NCBI GenBank assembly: GCA_938048455.1 | Contig: CALIUY010000051.1 | Coordinates: 1 to 50,410 of the forward strand | Direction of reading: 5' to 3' | From: an uncultured Desulfobacterales bacterium | Lineage (GTDB): Bacteria > Desulfobacterota > Desulfobacteria > Desulfobacterales > SpSt-501 | Length of the DNA stretch: 50,410 bases | In this document: positions 1 to 9,353 of the stretch, one piece after another | How positions within the stretch are numbered: position 1 is the stretch's first letter | Layout: every line of letters begins with the position of its first letter | The notes under the pieces: generated by a model | The model's database searches: none | What the model saw: the letters and a program-made list of their open reading frames with translations, nothing else | What the model was told of the DNA's origin: nothing | Position numbers and translations under genes: made by a program

Positions 1-2645
1 CTCCAGGACTCGGGGAAAAAGTTGCCTTCGGAATCTTCCCATCCGGCTTCGCCGTAGCTGTCTCTCAAAAATTCGTCCTCCGATTCGAAACGGCCGTGCC
101 GGGACCATTCGGGATCCTCGTCGAGAAAGGGCTCATCGGACTCTTGGCAAACGCCGTATGACGGAGTGGGCGTTCTCTTCTCTATGTCTTCAAGATCGCT
201 TGTGTTTTCACGATCGCCGACCGGCGAAACGAAAGTACCCACCAGAACCATCTCTTGATCCTTTAGGCTGCAGCCGTTCGCGGCGGCTCCAGCGGAAAGA
301 GGGGTCGGCGTAAGCACTACGATCGGGCCGTCCAGGGAAGGGGTGCCAACGGTCATGACGAGCCGGCCGTCGCGGTCGGCATAAACCCAGCGCCGCTCCA
401 TCCCGGGCGGAAGGGGTGCCCCGCGCTCCGGCCGGGTGGAGTCCGTTTCTCCGCCGGCGGGTTGTTCAGCGGCGGGGGTTTTTCTCCGCTTGCGGGTCAG
501 CCGCAAGGTGATCGCATCCCAGAAACGCTCACGTCCCCACTCGGCGCAGGTTTCATCGATCCTGCGCAGCGTGTTCAGGATGCGTCGGCAATCGGAGCGA
601 AAACGGTTGGCAACCGAGTGGAGCCGGTGATCGGGCTTGAAGCCCTGCAGTAAAGCGTGCACCGCCAGAACCGCAGGCGCATTCAAGCGGTTGAGACAAA
701 GACCCCGCTCCGAGAGGGTGGCGTCGCATTCGAGCGCCGGGCCTTTCCATTCGGCCGGCAGGTACTCCATCGCCAGCGAGGGGACATTCGCCAGCGCCCA
801 GGCGAGGGCGTAATCGTCGCCCTCGAGCCCCTTGGCGAAGAGGCGGTTGAAATTCATCCGCCAGGCATGGATGTCCTGCGGGGGGAAATACATGACCGAG
901 GCTACGTTTCCCAGGGCGGTGATGGCCACCTCGTCGTCCTGGACGCGGACCATGCCCAGCTCGACGAGTCTTGCCAGCACCTCTTCCACCTCCGCGGTGG
1001 AAAAGGGCTTCCGGCCCTGGCGGTGGGCGAGGCTGCGGCGGTACCAGGTGAAGACATCGCTCAGGCGGCTGATTTGGCCGGTGTAGATCTCGGCCAGGAC
1101 GTGCGTGAGGAGATGCCGGCGGTCGTTCAAGACGGAGGTCACCGGCCGGGGTTTGCGGAACGTCTGCTCCCATTTGCCGCGGCTGCCCTCCGGGACGATG
1201 AGGAAAACGTGCCCCTCGTCGTCGATTCCGTAGCGGCCGGCGCGGCCGGCCATCTGGATGATGTCGAGCTCGTCGACCGGTTGCAGCCCGCGCGTGACGC
1301 CCACCACCACGACGTTGCGCGCCGGCAGATTCACTCCCCAGGCCGTGGTGCCGGTGCTGACGAGCACGCGGGTTCCGTTGGCGCGATCCTTGAAGCTCCT
1401 TTCGATTGCGGCGCGTTCCTCGAGATCGAGGTCGCCGTTGTGATAAAGGACCTTGACGCCGCGTTTTTTCAACTCCGACAACAGCCTGGAGCCCGTTGTC
1501 TTGGCGTGGACGAAGACCAGGAACTTCTCCGTCGGTTTGCGCAGGACCTGTTCGATCGCCAGTTCGATTTTTTCGTTTTCGGTGCGGTGGTAGTTCAGCT
1601 TGCCCTCGTAGGTTCGATACACCCGGTGTTCGACGTAGGTGAACTCGAGCTTCACCGGCCGCCAGTCCTTGTGGACCACGTCGGTCGGCTTGCCGTTCAG
1701 GGAGGTGAGCCACGCCCCGATCTCTTCCCGGTTCGAAACGGTGGCGCTCAACAGCATCAGACGCGCCTGCGGGCAGACCCGCGTGAAGCGCATCAGCCCG
1801 GTCTCGACCTTGTCGCCCCGGGGGGTGGAGAGGATGTGGGCCTCGTCCACCACGAGCAGTCCGACCGCCGCCATCCACTCGTTGCGTTCGCTTTCGAACT
1901 TGCGGGTGCGGCTGTCGAGCATCTCGGAGGTCATGAGCACGATGTCGGCCTCCCGCAGGCTCTGCTGCAGGCTCGCGGTGAGCTCGTAATCTCCGGTCAT
2001 GATCACCAGGCGACGGTTCGCATAGCGCAGGCGCCAATCCGCGTAGCGCTCCTCGGTCAGCGCCTTGAAGGGGCTCAGGTAGATCACCTTGAAGCCGCGG
2101 GCGAGGGTGTCGTCGACGACCAGCTCGGCGGCGATGGTTTTGCCGGCGCTGGTATTGGCGCTGACGACGATGTTGCGGCCGTTTCCGGCCAAGGGGAAAA
2201 CGGCGCTCTGGAGCGGGTTGAAGTGGGTGAAGGGGTAAGGATAGGGGTAGCCCGCAACCGGGATGAGCCCAGGATCGGTCTCGGCTTCCTCAAGGACGGC
2301 TGCGGGTTCGGTACCGCGCGCAGGGGCGCTCAGCTCGACGGTTACCTCCGGCTGCGGGTACGAGCCGCGGTTTGCGGCCAGCGCCACTACCGTGCCGACG
2401 AGAGGCGCGGCGGCATGCTTGATCCAGGGGGCAAAGCGGGTGCACCATTCCGCTTCGAGGTAACCGACCGGCGTGCCGTCCCAGCGGTCCATGCGCACGC
2501 AAGGGGGGGCCTCCGCTTTGCTCCCCGGCTCGAGGGCCATGTGCAGCTTTTCCCCGATCCGAATCTGAAGCAGCGGCTCCAGCCCCCCCTCGAGCGACAC
2601 TTCGAGCTTCGTGCGGATCGTCTCCTGCGGCGGGAGGTCTTCCAT
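1..2645 (-). CDS. Ski2-like DEAD/DEAH-box helicase, C-terminus cut by window edge
   Basis: Open from the ATG at 2645 through the left edge (881 codons visible). It has superfamily 2 helicase motifs in order: Walker A with K169 in ANTSAGKT, DEAH box at 267-270, SAT at 300-302, and motif VI QMAGRAGR at 464-471. The QMAGRAGR form and the region after it place it with Ski2/Brr2-type ATP-dependent RNA or DNA unwinding enzymes. About 150 residues precede the helicase core and are not recognised; the C-terminal part is rich in Asp/Glu and polar residues. The start is supported by an AGGGGA element 5-6 bases upstream. It lies 16 bases downstream of the metallopeptidase stop on the same strand, so the two are probably co-transcribed. 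The substrate is unknown. Family assignment is secure; the cellular role is not. Confidence 0.88.
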   Translation of the reverse strand, partial: MEDLPPQETIRTKLEVSLEGGLEPLLQIRIGEKLHMALEPGSKAEAPPCVRMDRWDGTPVGYLEAEWCTRFAPWIKHAAAPLVGTVVALAANRGSYPQPEVTVELSAPARGTEPAAVLEEAETDPGLIPVAGYPYPYPFTHFNPLQSAVFPLAGNGRNIVVSANTSAGKTIAAELVVDDTLARGFKVIYLSPFKALTEERYADWRLRYANRRLVIMTGDYELTASLQQSLREADIVLMTSEMLDSRTRKFESERNEWMAAVGLLVVDEAHILSTPRGDKVETGLMRFTRVCPQARLMLLSATVSNREEIGAWLTSLNGKPTDVVHKDWRPVKLEFTYVEHRVYRTYEGKLNYHRTENEKIELAIEQVLRKPTEKFLVFVHAKTTGSRLLSELKKRGVKVLYHNGDLDLEERAAIERSFKDRANGTRVLVSTGTTAWGVNLPARNVVVVGVTRGLQPVDELDIIQMAGRAGRYGIDDEGHVFLIVPEGSRGKWEQTFRKPRPVTSVLNDRRHLLTHVLAEIYTGQISRLSDVFTWYRRSLAHRQGRKPFSTAEVEEVLARLVELGMVRVQDDEVAITALGNVASVMYFPPQDIHAWRMNFNRLFAKGLEGDDYALAWALANVPSLAMEYLPAEWKGPALECDATLSERGLCLNRLNAPAVLAVHALLQGFKPDHRLHSVANRFRSDCRRILNTLRRIDETCAEWGRERFWDAITLRLTRKRRKTPAAEQPAGGETDSTRPERGAPLPPGMERRWVYADRDGRLVMTVGTPSLDGPIVVLTPTPLSAGAAANGCSLKDQEMVLVGTFVSPVGDRENTSDLEDIEKRTPTPSYGVCQESDEPFLDEDPEWSRHGRFESEDEFLRDSYGEAGWEDSEGNFFPESW

Positions 2646-2661
2646 CGGCGTCCCCTGTCGA

Positions 2662-3942
2662 TCACCGGCCGGCCCCTGGACCGTCGGCTGCGGTCGTGAC
2701 GTCGCTGATGCGGTCGATGCGGACGGTCACCGGCGTTTCGCCTTCGGCCGTCATCAGGCGGACGGCCGGGAAAACGCCTTCCTTGACCAGCTCGACCGGA
2801 GTTCCCGTGAGGCGACAGGTCTCGGAGTCCGACACCCGAAACGAAAGCTCGATCCGGCGCCTTCCGTACATGGCCTCGCGCAGCGAACGCTCGAAGGCCT
2901 CCTCCCGATCCCATGCCTCCTCCTCCCGCTCCTTGCCGCGCTGCAGGCTCTCGTTCAGACGGCTGCCCTCGTCGTCGCCTTCCTGCTGCCCGGCAAGCGA
3001 CAACTCGTGAAATTGTTTCTCCGTCTTCAGGCGGATCCCCCTGGACTCGTCCCAATAGATCCACCCCGCATCCTGCATCATCTTCTGCCGCTTGGCCCAA
3101 CCCCAGCCCGATGCGAGACCCTCGGCGATGTGCCGGGTGACCCGGGGGCCGAAATAGGGCTCCTCCGCGGCCGCGGGCGGCTCGAGCTGGCCCTGGGTGG
3201 CCAAAAACGTAGCGAGTTCCGCCGACCAGCCATCGGCGAAATCCTCGCGCTCGGCATGCGGACGGCTCCGGTCCGGGTGACGCACCGTGTCGAGTGCGTG
3301 GGCGAACTCGTGCAGAAAGGTCTGGGCCATGCCCTTCCAGATGAGTCCGATCAGGCTGCAGCCGTTGTTTTCGTGTTCGATGACGCGGACCGCACTCTCG
3401 AAATGTTTGCGCAGGTTGATGGTGATCGTGCGCGAGACAGGGTCGAAGGTTCCGAACTGCTCGCTGCCCTCCTGCGCCGGGGTTCCGTCCTGGGTGAAAA
3501 CGATGGTCTGCAAAGCGTGCTCGGGGAACCAGCTCATGCACACATAGATCAGGTGCATCAAGCGGTCGGAGACCAGATGGGCGTTTTGAATCCGGACGCC
3601 GAAGAAATCGACGTCGGTGGCAAGGGGGCGTCCGTCCTCGGGCGAGCGCGGCGGGCCGTACATCGAGTCGTGGTAGCCCTTGAGGCCGCGTTTGACCTCG
3701 TTCAACCAGCGCCAGAAAAGCTCATTGCGGGCGCCCGTAGGGCCCCGCGGCCGACGCTTGGCGTTTCCGCGGCGGCGTCGTGGAAGCGGATCCTCCTCTT
3801 CCTCTTCATCCTGCTTTTCGTCCCCGCCCTCGATCTCCCGGCGCAGGCGGCGAAGCTCCCGCCGCTCCTCGGCCAGCTCCTCCGAAAGCGCGCCGATCAG
3901 ACCCATTTCCTCGGCATCGATTCCGTCGTCGAAGATACCCAT
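2662..3942 (-). CDS. putative zinc metallopeptidase (HEFAH) paired with helicase
   Basis: A 426-residue protein with no family I can name. The N-terminus (about 15-65) is highly charged, with a Glu/Asp-rich stretch followed by an Arg-rich one, and is probably coiled or disordered. The centre holds a zincin signature, H211-E212-F213-A214-H215 in the context LHEFAHALD; a Glu-containing stretch about 20-30 residues later (EDFADGWSAEL) could give the third ligand. The C-terminal 70 residues look like a small beta-rich domain ending in RIDRISDV. The ATG is preceded by GGAGGAGGT, a very strong ribosome binding site. The helicase follows 16 bases later, suggesting a two-gene unit. No signal peptide is visible, so it should be cytoplasmic. 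Peptidase activity is inferred from the motif only. Confidence 0.72.
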   Translation of the reverse strand: MGIFDDGIDAEEMGLIGALSEELAEERRELRRLRREIEGGDEKQDEEEEEDPLPRRRRGNAKRRPRGPTGARNELFWRWLNEVKRGLKGYHDSMYGPPRSPEDGRPLATDVDFFGVRIQNAHLVSDRLMHLIYVCMSWFPEHALQTIVFTQDGTPAQEGSEQFGTFDPVSRTITINLRKHFESAVRVIEHENNGCSLIGLIWKGMAQTFLHEFAHALDTVRHPDRSRPHAEREDFADGWSAELATFLATQGQLEPPAAAEEPYFGPRVTRHIAEGLASGWGWAKRQKMMQDAGWIYWDESRGIRLKTEKQFHELSLAGQQEGDDEGSRLNESLQRGKEREEEAWDREEAFERSLREAMYGRRRIELSFRVSDSETCRLTGTPVELVKEGVFPAVRLMTAEGETPVTVRIDRISDVTTAADGPGAGR

Positions 3943-4129: not shown

Positions 4130-6103
4130 TCAGGGGGCCGCATGTTGTATTGCTCTCGATCGAGAAACGGAGCAGGCCTTTCGTTGCAGGAATGCCGGAA
4201 GCGGCTCGCAAAGCGGTTCCAACCGCCCCGGATAGCCGCGGACGGACTGCAGCAGGCGCATGGCCGTCTCCGGCGGGCCGCAGACTTTGGCGCTGGCGCA
4301 GCCGGCGGCGGCGCCGAGGTTTGCCTGGAGGCCGTTTTTGGCCCAGGTTTCGAGCTGCCAGTCGAGCGCGAGAAACCGCTCGAAATCGAGCCGGTCCAGG
4401 AAGCGCCGGGCCTGCTCGATCCCCGCAAAGCGCATCGGCCCGGCGGGGTCCAAAAAGCGGGTGGCGACCTCCAAGCCCAACTTCGGATGCGGGGTGTAGC
4501 GATGGTCGGTGTAGAGCAGCTCGATTCGCCCGGGGCGGTGATGGTCCCAGCCGATCTTGAGCACCCGCTCGAAGCGGTCCCATTGGGCGCTGCGCTGCTT
4601 GGGCCGATAGTACTCCTCGTAGAAGCCGACGGCGGCTGCGGCCCGGAATCCTCTGGACTTAAGGAACTCGCGGAAGTCCGGCATCGAGTCGAGCCGAAAG
4701 AAAAATTCCCTCTTGGCATCGACATAGACCTCCCGCTGGATGAGCGTCGGGCTGGAGTCGCCGAAGTGCGCGGCATAGCCGTCGATCAGACGGTCGCCTT
4801 CCCGCAACACGCGTTCCAGATCGGCGGGAGAGGACACGGCGAGGCGCCGCTTGGAGCGGACGAAGCACGGGTGGTAGTGCATGTCGCTGCCGAAGGTGCG
4901 GTCTCGCGTCTCCCGGCAGTGGCCGCAGCCGATGCTGCAGGTCAGGCGCTGCAGCTCGATCGTGAAGCGGGCGTCCGCCTGCAGGCGGAAGATCCGTTGG
5001 CGGAGGTTTTTCCGCTCGGGCGGTCCGGCGACGATCCCGGCGAGGTCTTCGGCGACGGCGTCGATGTCGTAGAACAGCCGGTAGTCGCTCGGGTTTTCCG
5101 GCAGCACCAGGAGCTCGAGGAGCTTGATCGCCGCGGCTCCGAGCGAGTGGGCAAGTTCGACGGCCGCTCGGGTGCGGGTGTGATTCAAATCCCGCAGCAC
5201 GACATGATTCATCTTCACCTCGAGCCCGGAGGCGGCGGCGAGGCGGATGTTGGCCTTGACGCGCTCGAAGAGGTCCCGGCGGCGGGTGCGCGTCACCTTC
5301 CGGAAAGTTTCGGGGTCGGCGGCATGGAGCGAAAGGTGGATCTTTTTCCCGCCGGGATAGGCGCAAAGGGCCTCCACGAGCTCGCGGTCAAGCAGCGAGC
5401 CGTTCGTCACCAGCGTCAGATCCGGTTTGTCCGGTCCGCGGCCCAGACCCTCGAGCAGTGCCAAAAGGCGTTCCTTTTCCAGCAACGGCTCGCCCCCGGT
5501 GAAAGTGATATCGGTATACCCCAAGCGGATCGCCTCCGCGAGAATTTCGAGCACCTGCTCCACCGGGGTGGGCTTGCGCCGCCGGTCCTGCCCGAGACCT
5601 TCCTTGTGGCAAAAGAGGCAGCGGAAATTGCACCGCTCGGTCAGCGCAAGACGCATCTCCCGGCGTTTTCTGAGCTCCGTGTAGAGCACGAGGCGATAGT
5701 CGTCCCCATCGCGAACCGGTTCGGCGGAGAGAAGCCGGAAGCCGCGCTTGAAGAGCATGCCGGTCCAGACCGGCCAGCGGTTGGAAGCGCTCACCTTGAG
5801 GCGCGAGCACCCGCGAGCGGCCAGCTCGCGCCGGGAGGCGTCGACGAGGAAGGAGCCGGCCCCCTGGTGGCGGCGCTCCGGTCGGATGGCCGCACTCCAG
5901 AGCTCGGCCTCGCCGTTGCGACGCAGAAACACGGCATAGCCGGCGGGGGAGGGCTCCTCCGGGCGGTCGACCCAGAAGAAGAGCGGGTCGTAACCTCTCG
6001 TTTGCCGGCGAAATTGGGCCGTGGTCAAAGGTTCGGCGAAAAGCTCGCGGTGCAGGGCGAGCACCGCCGCCGCATCCGACGTGCACGATAGACGCCAGCT
6101 CAT
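4130..6103 (-). CDS. GNAT acetyltransferase-radical SAM fusion protein
   Basis: 657 residues in three parts. Residues 1-140 resemble a GCN5-type N-acetyltransferase, with an acetyl-CoA loop RRHQGAGSF. Residues 150-400 are a MoaA/PqqE-like radical SAM domain, with cluster cysteines C158, C162 and C165 in CNFRCLFC, the TGGEP motif, and a later Cys-rich stretch (CSIGCGHC) that may bind a second cluster. Residues 460-657 are a further domain that I cannot assign firmly; its opening (charged strand, then FREFLKSRGF) recalls CYTH phosphohydrolases/cyclases. The start ATG overlaps the stop of the DegT-type aminotransferase by 4 bases, so the two are translationally coupled and probably act in one pathway. 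The substrate is unknown. All core radical SAM residues are intact. Confidence 0.8.
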   Translation of the reverse strand: MSWRLSCTSDAAAVLALHRELFAEPLTTAQFRRQTRGYDPLFFWVDRPEEPSPAGYAVFLRRNGEAELWSAAIRPERRHQGAGSFLVDASRRELAARGCSRLKVSASNRWPVWTGMLFKRGFRLLSAEPVRDGDDYRLVLYTELRKRREMRLALTERCNFRCLFCHKEGLGQDRRRKPTPVEQVLEILAEAIRLGYTDITFTGGEPLLEKERLLALLEGLGRGPDKPDLTLVTNGSLLDRELVEALCAYPGGKKIHLSLHAADPETFRKVTRTRRRDLFERVKANIRLAAASGLEVKMNHVVLRDLNHTRTRAAVELAHSLGAAAIKLLELLVLPENPSDYRLFYDIDAVAEDLAGIVAGPPERKNLRQRIFRLQADARFTIELQRLTCSIGCGHCRETRDRTFGSDMHYHPCFVRSKRRLAVSSPADLERVLREGDRLIDGYAAHFGDSSPTLIQREVYVDAKREFFFRLDSMPDFREFLKSRGFRAAAAVGFYEEYYRPKQRSAQWDRFERVLKIGWDHHRPGRIELLYTDHRYTPHPKLGLEVATRFLDPAGPMRFAGIEQARRFLDRLDFERFLALDWQLETWAKNGLQANLGAAAGCASAKVCGPPETAMRLLQSVRGYPGRLEPLCEPLPAFLQRKACSVSRSRAIQHAAP

Positions 6104-9251: not shown

Positions 9252-9353
9252 CCTGCGCCTGAAAAGGGCAAACCAGCCGAAAGGCTGGGACGCAAAGCCA
9301 CCGGCCTACCTCCTGCGCTTGCAGGATAAGGCGGCGGGGCTGCCGGGCGGAGG
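9252..9353 (+). promoter_or_regulatory. c-di-GMP-I (GEMM) riboswitch aptamer
   Basis: The conserved core is seen directly. GGGCAAACC is followed by a GAAA-capped hairpin (9274-9287), then GGGACGCAAAGCC and CCGGCCTA, then a P3 helix (CTCCTGC/GCAGGA) with the CCTA...TAAGG tetraloop receptor, then GGCGGCGGGGCTGCC matching the conserved 3' part. P1 can form between 9252-9260 and 9345-9353 with one mismatch. The ligand-contact position equivalent to G20 of the Vibrio Vc2 aptamer is G, as in c-di-GMP binders, not A as in the cGAMP-binding variant. The aptamer sits between a sigma54 promoter and a secreted surface-protein gene, the usual type of target. Confidence 0.92.

Follow-up and report, generated by a model that had tools for sequence, protein, structure and literature searches.

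A tail-zincin-WYL protein encoded beside a Hel308/Brr2-like helicase in a Desulfobacterales bacterium: a possible DNA-triggered conflict unit

We analyzed a window of 50410 bases, which is the entire contig C51 of a 64-contig genome of an uncultured Desulfobacterales bacterium (genome G000), with respect to two genes at its beginning: gene 1, coding a protein with an acidic tail, a zincin core and a WYL domain, and gene 2, coding a helicase related to Hel308 and Brr2. We consider, with a probability of roughly 40%, that the pair is a two-gene DNA-triggered conflict unit, most likely anti-phage or anti-plasmid, which relocates as a block. Gene 1 would then code for a zincin protease of the HExxH-E type, located in the cytoplasm and under the control of its C-terminal WYL domain. 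This reading is based on the conservation of the pair between different flanks, purifying selection, the zincin core, the WYL domain, the contexts with CRISPR (clustered regularly interspaced short palindromic repeats) and BREX (bacteriophage exclusion) genes, and the precedent of the Hachiman and HamMAB systems. We infer metal binding, protease activity, sensing of single-stranded DNA (ssDNA), protein-protein contact and defence.

This kind of system, a helicase with an effector, is already known. The tail-zincin-WYL architecture appears to be new: it was present in none of the Pfam, PADLOC, NCBIfam and PHROG libraries, and neither a description of it nor any zincin fused to a WYL domain was found in the papers searched.

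Conservation of the gene pair

Both genes lie on the minus strand, and the list of open reading frames (ORFs) places them 16 bases apart; the two ORFs and this spacing, on which an earlier note made from the sequence had based a two-gene unit, were confirmed. The contig ends at position 1, so that only one flank of the pair is readable and the helicase is truncated; the full helicase may be longer.

When the own genome and its relatives (58 genomes) were searched with the proteins, gene 1 was found in two, the window genome and a second genome of the same genus (G003), and the near-full-length helicase in the same two. The helicase search at E 1e-20 listed four of the 58 genomes, the other two with partial matches at 30-34%. 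The genes were adjacent in two of the seven genomes of the genus; three of the remaining five are 80-87% complete. At the level of the order, a gene 1 profile matched 15 of 389 genomes. Three of these (G000, G003 and G075, the third zincin-bearing genome) matched through the zincin core, and the other 12 merely through the first ~50 residues. The helicase profile at E 1e-30 matched only G000 and G003 among 340 genomes of the order. Searches with the zincin core gave no genome besides the window's own among 345 genomes of the phylum, and G075 and G003 alone among 58 relatives of G075. No match was obtained with the peptidase in genome contig, plasmid and phage collections, or with queries A1, A4 and A6 in the viral contig collection.

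Between G000 and G003 the peptidases are 57% and the helicases 68% identical. The G003 helicase gene probably begins at an ATG that shares bases with the peptidase stop codon. Nucleotide similarity of the window to 20 kb of G003 consisted of three pieces, from 519 to 3941 of the window and within both genes; the sole further match at the protein level, at 30% near 29.5-30.8 kb, was weak and distant. The ratio of nonsynonymous to synonymous substitution (dN/dS) was ~0.41 for the peptidase and ~0.28 for the helicase, and third codon positions varied most, indicating from this comparison of two sequences that both genes are under purifying selection. Since the flanks differ while the pair persists, and since dN/dS is low, the two genes remain joined across differing surroundings and are maintained. 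That they are neighbors is more than coincidence, and their adjacency in another genome bears out the earlier note, which had made the proposed unit depend on such conservation.

A distant homologue in a type III CRISPR locus

The homologue in G075 (28% identity to gene 1; locus L029, 10921-12159, minus strand) stands in a different company. It ends a same-strand run of three genes, in which a NERD-UvrD helicase and a 286-residue paralogue without HExxH precede the tail-zincin-WYL gene. Directly upstream of this run are Csm6/Csx1 and Csm5 genes together with a CRISPR array that has at least 16 repeats. PADLOC assigned the helicase to C3a187 (E 6.6e-276) and the WYL domain to Cas-associated WYL; we take the C3a names, C3a187 here and C3a139 below, to denote type III CRISPR accessories. 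C3a187, the partner of the G075 homologue, is a superfamily 1 helicase with a nuclease-related domain and not the helicase of the window. Members of the zincin family thus occur beside two helicases that are unrelated to each other, and one of these lies in a type III CRISPR locus.

A search for the C3a187 family (PDLC01087) gave partial matches in three of five genomes and also in six of 14 control genomes, so these were taken as generic UvrD helicases and are uninformative. The HExxH-less zincin paralogue (L029, 12190-13050) is perhaps a pseudoenzyme partner of the adjoining zincin-WYL protein, which looks active.

The zincin core and the WYL domain of gene 1

In a model of the whole gene 1 protein the core and the C-terminal domain were well predicted, and residues 39-105 had a predicted local distance difference test score (pLDDT) below 50. 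Because the WYL domain filled the first structure search, the core was folded alone. In the core model (AlphaFold2, pLDDT 86.4) the HEFAH motif, which the earlier note had read at residues 211-215 and which was located there, lies in a helix. Among the 50 matches listed by VIA-align for the core, 48 were metallopeptidases, including EryP, lethal factor, M1 aminopeptidases, Wss1, dipeptidyl-peptidase III and collagenase. The other two were YbeY-type proteins, one of them called hypothetical in the list and taken by us to be YbeY. A YbeY-type protein was the top match and the sole chain at Z of 8 or more (Z 9.4), the rest having Z 6.7-7.9. VIA-align is a second look at the candidates of Foldseek, and plain Foldseek with the core gave no match at E of 0.001 or below and a list that includes non-zincins.

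From the VIA-align list and the motif, the predicted core is most likely a zincin with a probable glutamate as third ligand, in agreement with the earlier note, which had staked its metallopeptidase on a zincin fold around H211-H215. Gluzincin-type sites have a glutamate after HExxH as third ligand, for which E233, invariant in all three HExxH-bearing members, is the candidate. Since Foldseek gave no significant match for the core and the VIA-align scores were mostly Z 6.7-7.9, the core is placed among zincins in general and not in a subfamily. Gene 1 had no match in NCBIfam, PADLOC or PHROG, and Pfam at E up to 1 yielded only DUF4344 (PF14247; E 0.046, 13.9 bits, under the cut-off of 29.6) and SprT-like (E 0.17, 12.2 bits, under the cut-off of 25.6). 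The acidic and Arg-rich tracts pointed out in the earlier note sit between the tail helix and the core.

The small C-terminal beta domain of that note is identified here as a WYL domain. The G075 homologue matched WYL (PF13280) in Pfam at E 1.7e-8, above the cut-off, while the sequence of gene 1 alone did not reach it. The model of the window protein was similar to the WYL regions of BrxR, PafBC, DriD and CapW with Z of ~9-10, and Foldseek matched it to BrxR at E 0.003. Because Hfq-like and designed small barrels score almost as high against the model, the naming as WYL is founded on the sequence match of the G075 homologue. WYL domains are known mainly from transcriptional regulators. Gene 1 shares the domain, by model and homologue, with BrxR, CapW, PafBC and DriD; unlike these proteins, it has no DNA-binding helix-turn-helix (HTH) that we could find, and its WYL domain is fused to a putative enzyme. 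The WYL proteins PafBC and DriD were reported to bind ssDNA (PMC11804915, PMC12340889), and WYL regulators co-localize with phage-defence systems (PMC9122601).

The helicase and its phage relatives

Gene 2 was matched by the Pfam families DEAD (E 6.8e-26) and Helicase_C (E 2.7e-14), and it carries Walker A, DEAH, SAT and QMAGRAGR motifs, as expected from the earlier description as a Ski2-like helicase. A sequence search of the PDB gave Brr2 at 4.3e-60, Hel308 at 2.8e-46 and HamB at 8.9e-20. Its scores were far under the cut-offs of equivalog models, the best of which gave 199 of 887 bits. By these sequence comparisons, gene 2 is a Hel308/Brr2-like superfamily 2 (SF2) helicase, a relative rather than Hel308 itself. 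The best PADLOC model was HamB1 (E 6.7e-33), with a best stretch covering residues 165-376 only, and in PHROG it matched family 6819, a branch-migration helicase family (E 1.4e-44).

With tblastn, gene 2 matched a 595-kb phage record at 37% identity and E 7e-98, and a plasmid of Pseudoalteromonas at 38% identity and E 1e-85. The plasmid scan gave 84 records, with at most 38% identity among the 15 matches listed, and the best-matching plasmid is nearly identical to a contig of the viral collection (L168), the two being the same element. A four-sequence helicase alignment found 74 loci in the viral contigs with 31-49% identity in the best segment. The scan of the same contigs with the single helicase sequence gave no match. 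In the genome contigs, helicase query A2 found G003 and a Ktedonobacterales sequence at 31% alone.

A quick maximum-likelihood tree was made from 86 sequences, of which eight identical ones were dropped to leave 78 rows; 73 of the 74 viral loci had a long enough ORF. The helicases of the two pairs formed one branch (support 100) inside a clade of 69 rows (support 100), which otherwise holds 66 viral rows and the Pseudoalteromonas plasmid sequence. A smaller set with support of 98 unites 10 of the viral rows with the pair helicases and the plasmid sequence, and the other plasmid, archaeal and bacterial helicases included fall outside the clade of 69. The helicase of gene 2 thus looks to have been taken from a phage lineage, on a tree in which, according to a program warning, long branches meet, among other places where the clade of viral and pair rows connects with the remainder, and for which the phage rows were gathered by a scan with the helicase itself, so that the nesting among phages may partly reflect sampling.

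The resemblance to the helicases of large phages was seen over the helicase core. Neither zincin nor tail was found beside the related helicases at E up to 1 in 9282 ORFs of 80 loci (74 viral and 6 others); the same models recovered the G000, G003 and G075 proteins as a positive control, and 54 of the 74 viral loci had about full 5-kb flanks. The N-terminal region differs: no common origin of this region in the pair helicases and in four phage helicases was supported (hhalign probability 0.2). The earlier note had left about 150 N-terminal residues unrecognized, and ~125 of them indeed have no convincing match. HIRAN was considered and rejected for this region, because the Pfam match (E 0.003) was under the cut-off, none was reported for the orthologue even at E up to 1, and hhalign gave a probability of 1. 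These ~125 residues are kept between G000 and G003 and are unlike the four phage proteins, so that any contact with the gene 1 protein would most likely be made by them.

At the other end, the helicase frame (window 3-494) runs 160+ residues beyond the end of the G003 orthologue, in a stretch that is acidic. The GC content at third codon positions is 0.67 in window 3-500 vs 0.85 in 500-2645. This extension may be a lineage-specific domain or a read-through near an insertion boundary.

Some further features were noticed in the viral loci. CHC2-primase-like proteins occur near the helicase in several of the ten loci read by eye. By reading, the phage helicase of L151 (1096-4953) contains an interrupting stretch with a homing-endonuclease-like ORF, and the C-terminal junction (HN|CNLPARNV) looks like that of an intein. 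In L169-L172, L175, L183 and L184 the helicase matches were stretched to ~3 kb.

The N-terminal tail and integrative elements

Within the order, a profile of 18 tails matched 33 of 389 genomes, belonging to 18 of 150 genera; within the phylum it matched 6 of 345 genomes. The own genome is included in both counts. The tail family consists of unannotated acidic small proteins of ~45-100 residues, with a motif like DWEDWMIIGPLSEDIAEEKRE, that recur in the order. A model built from 15 stand-alone proteins gave 52 bits for the tail of the window, 59 for that of G003 and 30 for that of G075, and the best of ~2000 shuffles of each reached 18, 13 and 11 bits. The tails scored far above their shuffles; therefore the similarity is not due to acidic composition alone.

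Neighbors were counted in 41 of the 44 stand-alone tail loci found (L030-L045, L053-L057 and L090-L109; the rows G158, G022 and G222:C106 were left out). All 41 were re-found by the profile; several are truncated by contig ends, and the clusters were named from single-member Pfam matches or by reading. A DUF932-type cluster was near the tail gene in 15 loci, a MerR-like cluster in 13 and a HIRAN-type cluster in 8. An ArdC-like HExxH protein, whose ArdC-N and M78 matches in Pfam are under the cut-off, was found in 10 (9 upstream, 1 downstream). Two tail loci that were tested had a phage-type integrase, and one of them also had Rad52 and PD-(D/E)XK proteins. Hence the stand-alone tail loci look like a family of integrative elements.

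PADLOC was run on two of the 41 loci. In L037 (2777-8154) the tail gene lies ~230 bases upstream of the BREX genes brxA, brxB and brxC, and in L034 (4546-8309) it lies ~230 bases upstream of an HKD-Snf2 helicase gene (C3a139). It is possible that the neighborhood of the tail gene is a cargo site for defence genes.

By reading, a zinc-ribbon-like small protein carries the tail at its C-terminus in L090, L091 and L109; in other elements this protein is encoded by a separate neighboring gene. When one tail protein was compared with plasmids, phages and PHROGs, no match was obtained with this short acidic query, the low-complexity filter being on for plasmids and phages.

Proposed function and alternatives

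In the conflict unit that we propose, the helicase would load on unusual DNA such as forks and 3' ends during infection or DNA damage, and expose or feed ssDNA. The WYL domain would bind that ssDNA or an oligonucleotide, by which the zincin would be switched on or positioned, and the zincin could then cut a DNA-bound protein of the invader or a protein of the host. The tail may dock the protease to a partner common to integrative elements. The earlier note had taken the pairing of a peptidase with a translocase as a sign of protein removal from nucleic acids, crosslink repair or defence; the pairing proved right, a role in defence or repair fits, and the function itself is what we infer.

Hachiman offers the closest arrangement, with an effector gene followed by a Ski2-like helicase (PMC12278908). 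As in HamA-HamB, a putative effector gene precedes a Ski2-/Hel308-like DNA helicase with an extra N-terminal region; unlike in Hachiman, gene 1 codes a zincin-WYL protein and not a DUF1837 nuclease. Gene 2 also differs from HamB in being nearer to Brr2 and Hel308 in the PDB search and in grouping with phage helicases, in a tree without a known HamB row; among the PADLOC models, HamB is nonetheless its best match. In Hachiman, a helical region at the N-terminus of the helicase docks the effector, and the corresponding end of gene 2 is conserved but unrecognized. Membership in Hachiman was not accepted, as no DUF1837 (HamA) partner was found by Pfam or PADLOC and the helicase evidence is mixed. 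In HamMAB a protease is coupled to a sensor helicase, and proteases enter such systems (PMC12799240). The window pair resembles HamMAB and other nuclease-protease pairs of that report in having a protease beside a putative DNA-sensing helicase, but HamMAB combines a trypsin-like protease with a pro-nuclease of the metallo-beta-lactamase (MBL) fold, whereas the window has a putative metallopeptidase and no visible nuclease. If the proposal is true, a WYL-controlled metalloprotease joins the few known protease effectors coupled to DNA-sensing helicases, and bacteria have turned a phage helicase to their own use in the conflict. The unannotated acidic tail of integrative elements of the order, two of which carry adjoining defence genes, would thereby acquire a role that can be tested.

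Several observations weigh against a defence function. Nearby defence genes, for which the earlier note had suggested to look, were not found: the readable flank of the window showed neither a defence gene nor a phage gene that was convincing (ten ORFs by Pfam, three of them without match, and ten by PADLOC, eight being in both sets), and no convincing defence gene among nine ORFs flanking the G003 pair (Pfam). The zincin was found in three genomes only. The pocket of the WYL domain looks only partly conserved, R408 and D410 being invariant, and no W-Y-L motif is evident by eye. The G075 helicase scored so high against C3a187 that the profile may derive from this protein or a near relative, and it is of a type unrelated to the window helicase, so the partner of the zincin is not fixed.

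The alternative to be taken most seriously, which we nevertheless hold to be unlikely, is an accessory or anti-defence module of mobile elements. The zincin would cut host defence proteins, in a use akin to that of ArdC and polyvalent-protein peptidases, and a phage helicase would travel with it. In the polyvalent proteins of phages and conjugative elements, the most frequent domain is the zincin peptidase (PMC5512222). Gene 1 has in common with these and with ArdC zincins HExxH with a glutamate in the following helix, and the context of mobile elements seen for its tail, which recurs in integrative elements together with the ArdC-like gene and the DUF932-type cluster; the helicase is also of phage type. 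However, gene 1 lacks ArdC-N (PF08401; Pfam, E up to 1), carries a WYL domain and has no significant sequence relation to ArdC zincins that we found; hhalign of its core with the ArdC-like zincins near tail genes aligned 15 columns, the motif alone, with a probability of 17. Neither gene 1 nor the tail protein tested matched a PHROG, and the G075 gene lies with CRISPR-Cas. The tested flanks are chromosomal in both genomes and have no replication or transfer genes, yet two ISL3 transposases adjoin the G003 pair.

Repair of DNA-protein crosslinks or replication blocks, by an analogue of SPRTN/Wss1, comes next and is also improbable in our view. The helicase would open the DNA, the WYL domain would hold ssDNA and the zincin would digest the obstacle. 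Hel308-type helicases act at stalled forks. Like the crosslink proteases SPRTN, Wss1 and SprT, gene 1 would be a zincin, possibly working on DNA together with a helicase, and the ssDNA binding of PafBC and DriD (PMC11804915, PMC12340889) suits this role. Wss1 is among the structural neighbors listed for the core (Z 7.2), but Z of ~7 is common to many zincins. Unlike those proteases, gene 1 does not reach the SprT-like profile (E 0.17), has glutamate as the candidate third ligand, and is rare and patchy: a housekeeping unit would be expected in more than two of the seven genomes of the genus. Moreover, the G075 homologue sits in a CRISPR locus.

A more elaborate form of the defence reading, which we consider doubtful, is an immune unit assembled from captured parasite parts. 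The phage helicase, with its new N-terminal region, would serve as a sensor or bait, and the protease would bring the tail common to integrative elements and the WYL domain as an ssDNA switch; replication of the phage, or its interference with such helicases, would unleash proteolysis, and the same protease would be used in the type III CRISPR-Cas of related bacteria, beside a NERD-UvrD helicase. We give little credence to a role in signaling instead of killing, in which the protease would remove a repressor or activate a pro-enzyme such as the NERD nuclease of G075, as do the trypsin-like proteases of HamMAB. The protease gene of G075 is in one run with the NERD-UvrD gene, and Hachiman and Avs loci include examples of nucleases activated by proteases (PMC12799240), but no nuclease gene was seen on the readable side of the window pair. 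That the two are unrelated genes and neighbors by chance would accord with their occurrence in two genomes of one genus, but it is very improbable, because they are joined and constrained while the flanks differ, and because the likely helicase ATG overlaps the peptidase stop in G003.

Features and surroundings of the pair

Coordinates of the features of the two genes are given in Table 1.

Table 1. Features of the gene pair, in positions of the window
Feature	Position	Strand	Basis
Gene 1, tail-zincin-WYL protein, first of the pair, 426 residues	2662..3942	minus	ORF; G003 orthologue at 57% identity; distant G075 homologue at 28%
Acidic N-terminal tail/helix, residues 1-48	3799..3942	minus	Profile matches; common to stand-alone small proteins
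Acidic, then Arg-rich linker, residues 39-70	3733..3828	minus	Sequence; low model confidence, probably disordered
Predicted zincin core, residues 110-320	2983..3615	minus	AlphaFold2 model of residues 88-345, pLDDT 86.4; VIA-align list
HEFAH motif, H211-H215	3298..3312	minus	H211, E212 and H215 invariant in three HExxH-bearing members
E233, candidate third zinc ligand, 18 residues after H215	3244..3246	minus	Invariant in 3 of 3 HExxH-bearing members; putative metal binding
WYL domain, residues 347-421	2680..2904	minus	PF13280 match of G075 homologue; window protein by model
Gene 2, Hel308/Brr2-like SF2 helicase, at least 881 residues	3..2645	minus	ORF; open at the window edge, which is the contig edge
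Helicase N-terminal region, residues 1-125, fold unrecognized	2271..2645	minus	42% identity to G003 orthologue
DEAD and Helicase_C domains, helicase residues 139-473	1227..2231	minus	Pfam
C-terminal extension, helicase residues 718-881+	3..494	minus	Beyond the end of the G003 orthologue

The genes beside the pair in the window code for a radical-SAM/GNAT protein and a DegT aminotransferase (Pfam). The former, a GNAT/radical-SAM fusion at 4130-6103, matched viperin models of PADLOC over the radical-SAM domain (E 2e-19); the match is partial and probably generic. Other PADLOC matches in the flank, to CARF-AAA and CasR models over AAA or HTH parts, also look generic. Further along, the readable flank codes for a PEP-CTERM protein, a sigma-54 response regulator, an epimerase, an ATP sulfurylase/APS kinase and a U32 peptidase, among others. 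No cas genes were recognized in this flank, unlike in the G075 locus. The neighbors of the G003 pair are two ISL3 transposase genes directly downstream (L003, 6004-8284; Pfam), a tRNA synthetase and periplasmic or unnamed proteins. A c-di-GMP-I riboswitch was found in the window at 9257-9347 on the plus strand (81.5 bits).

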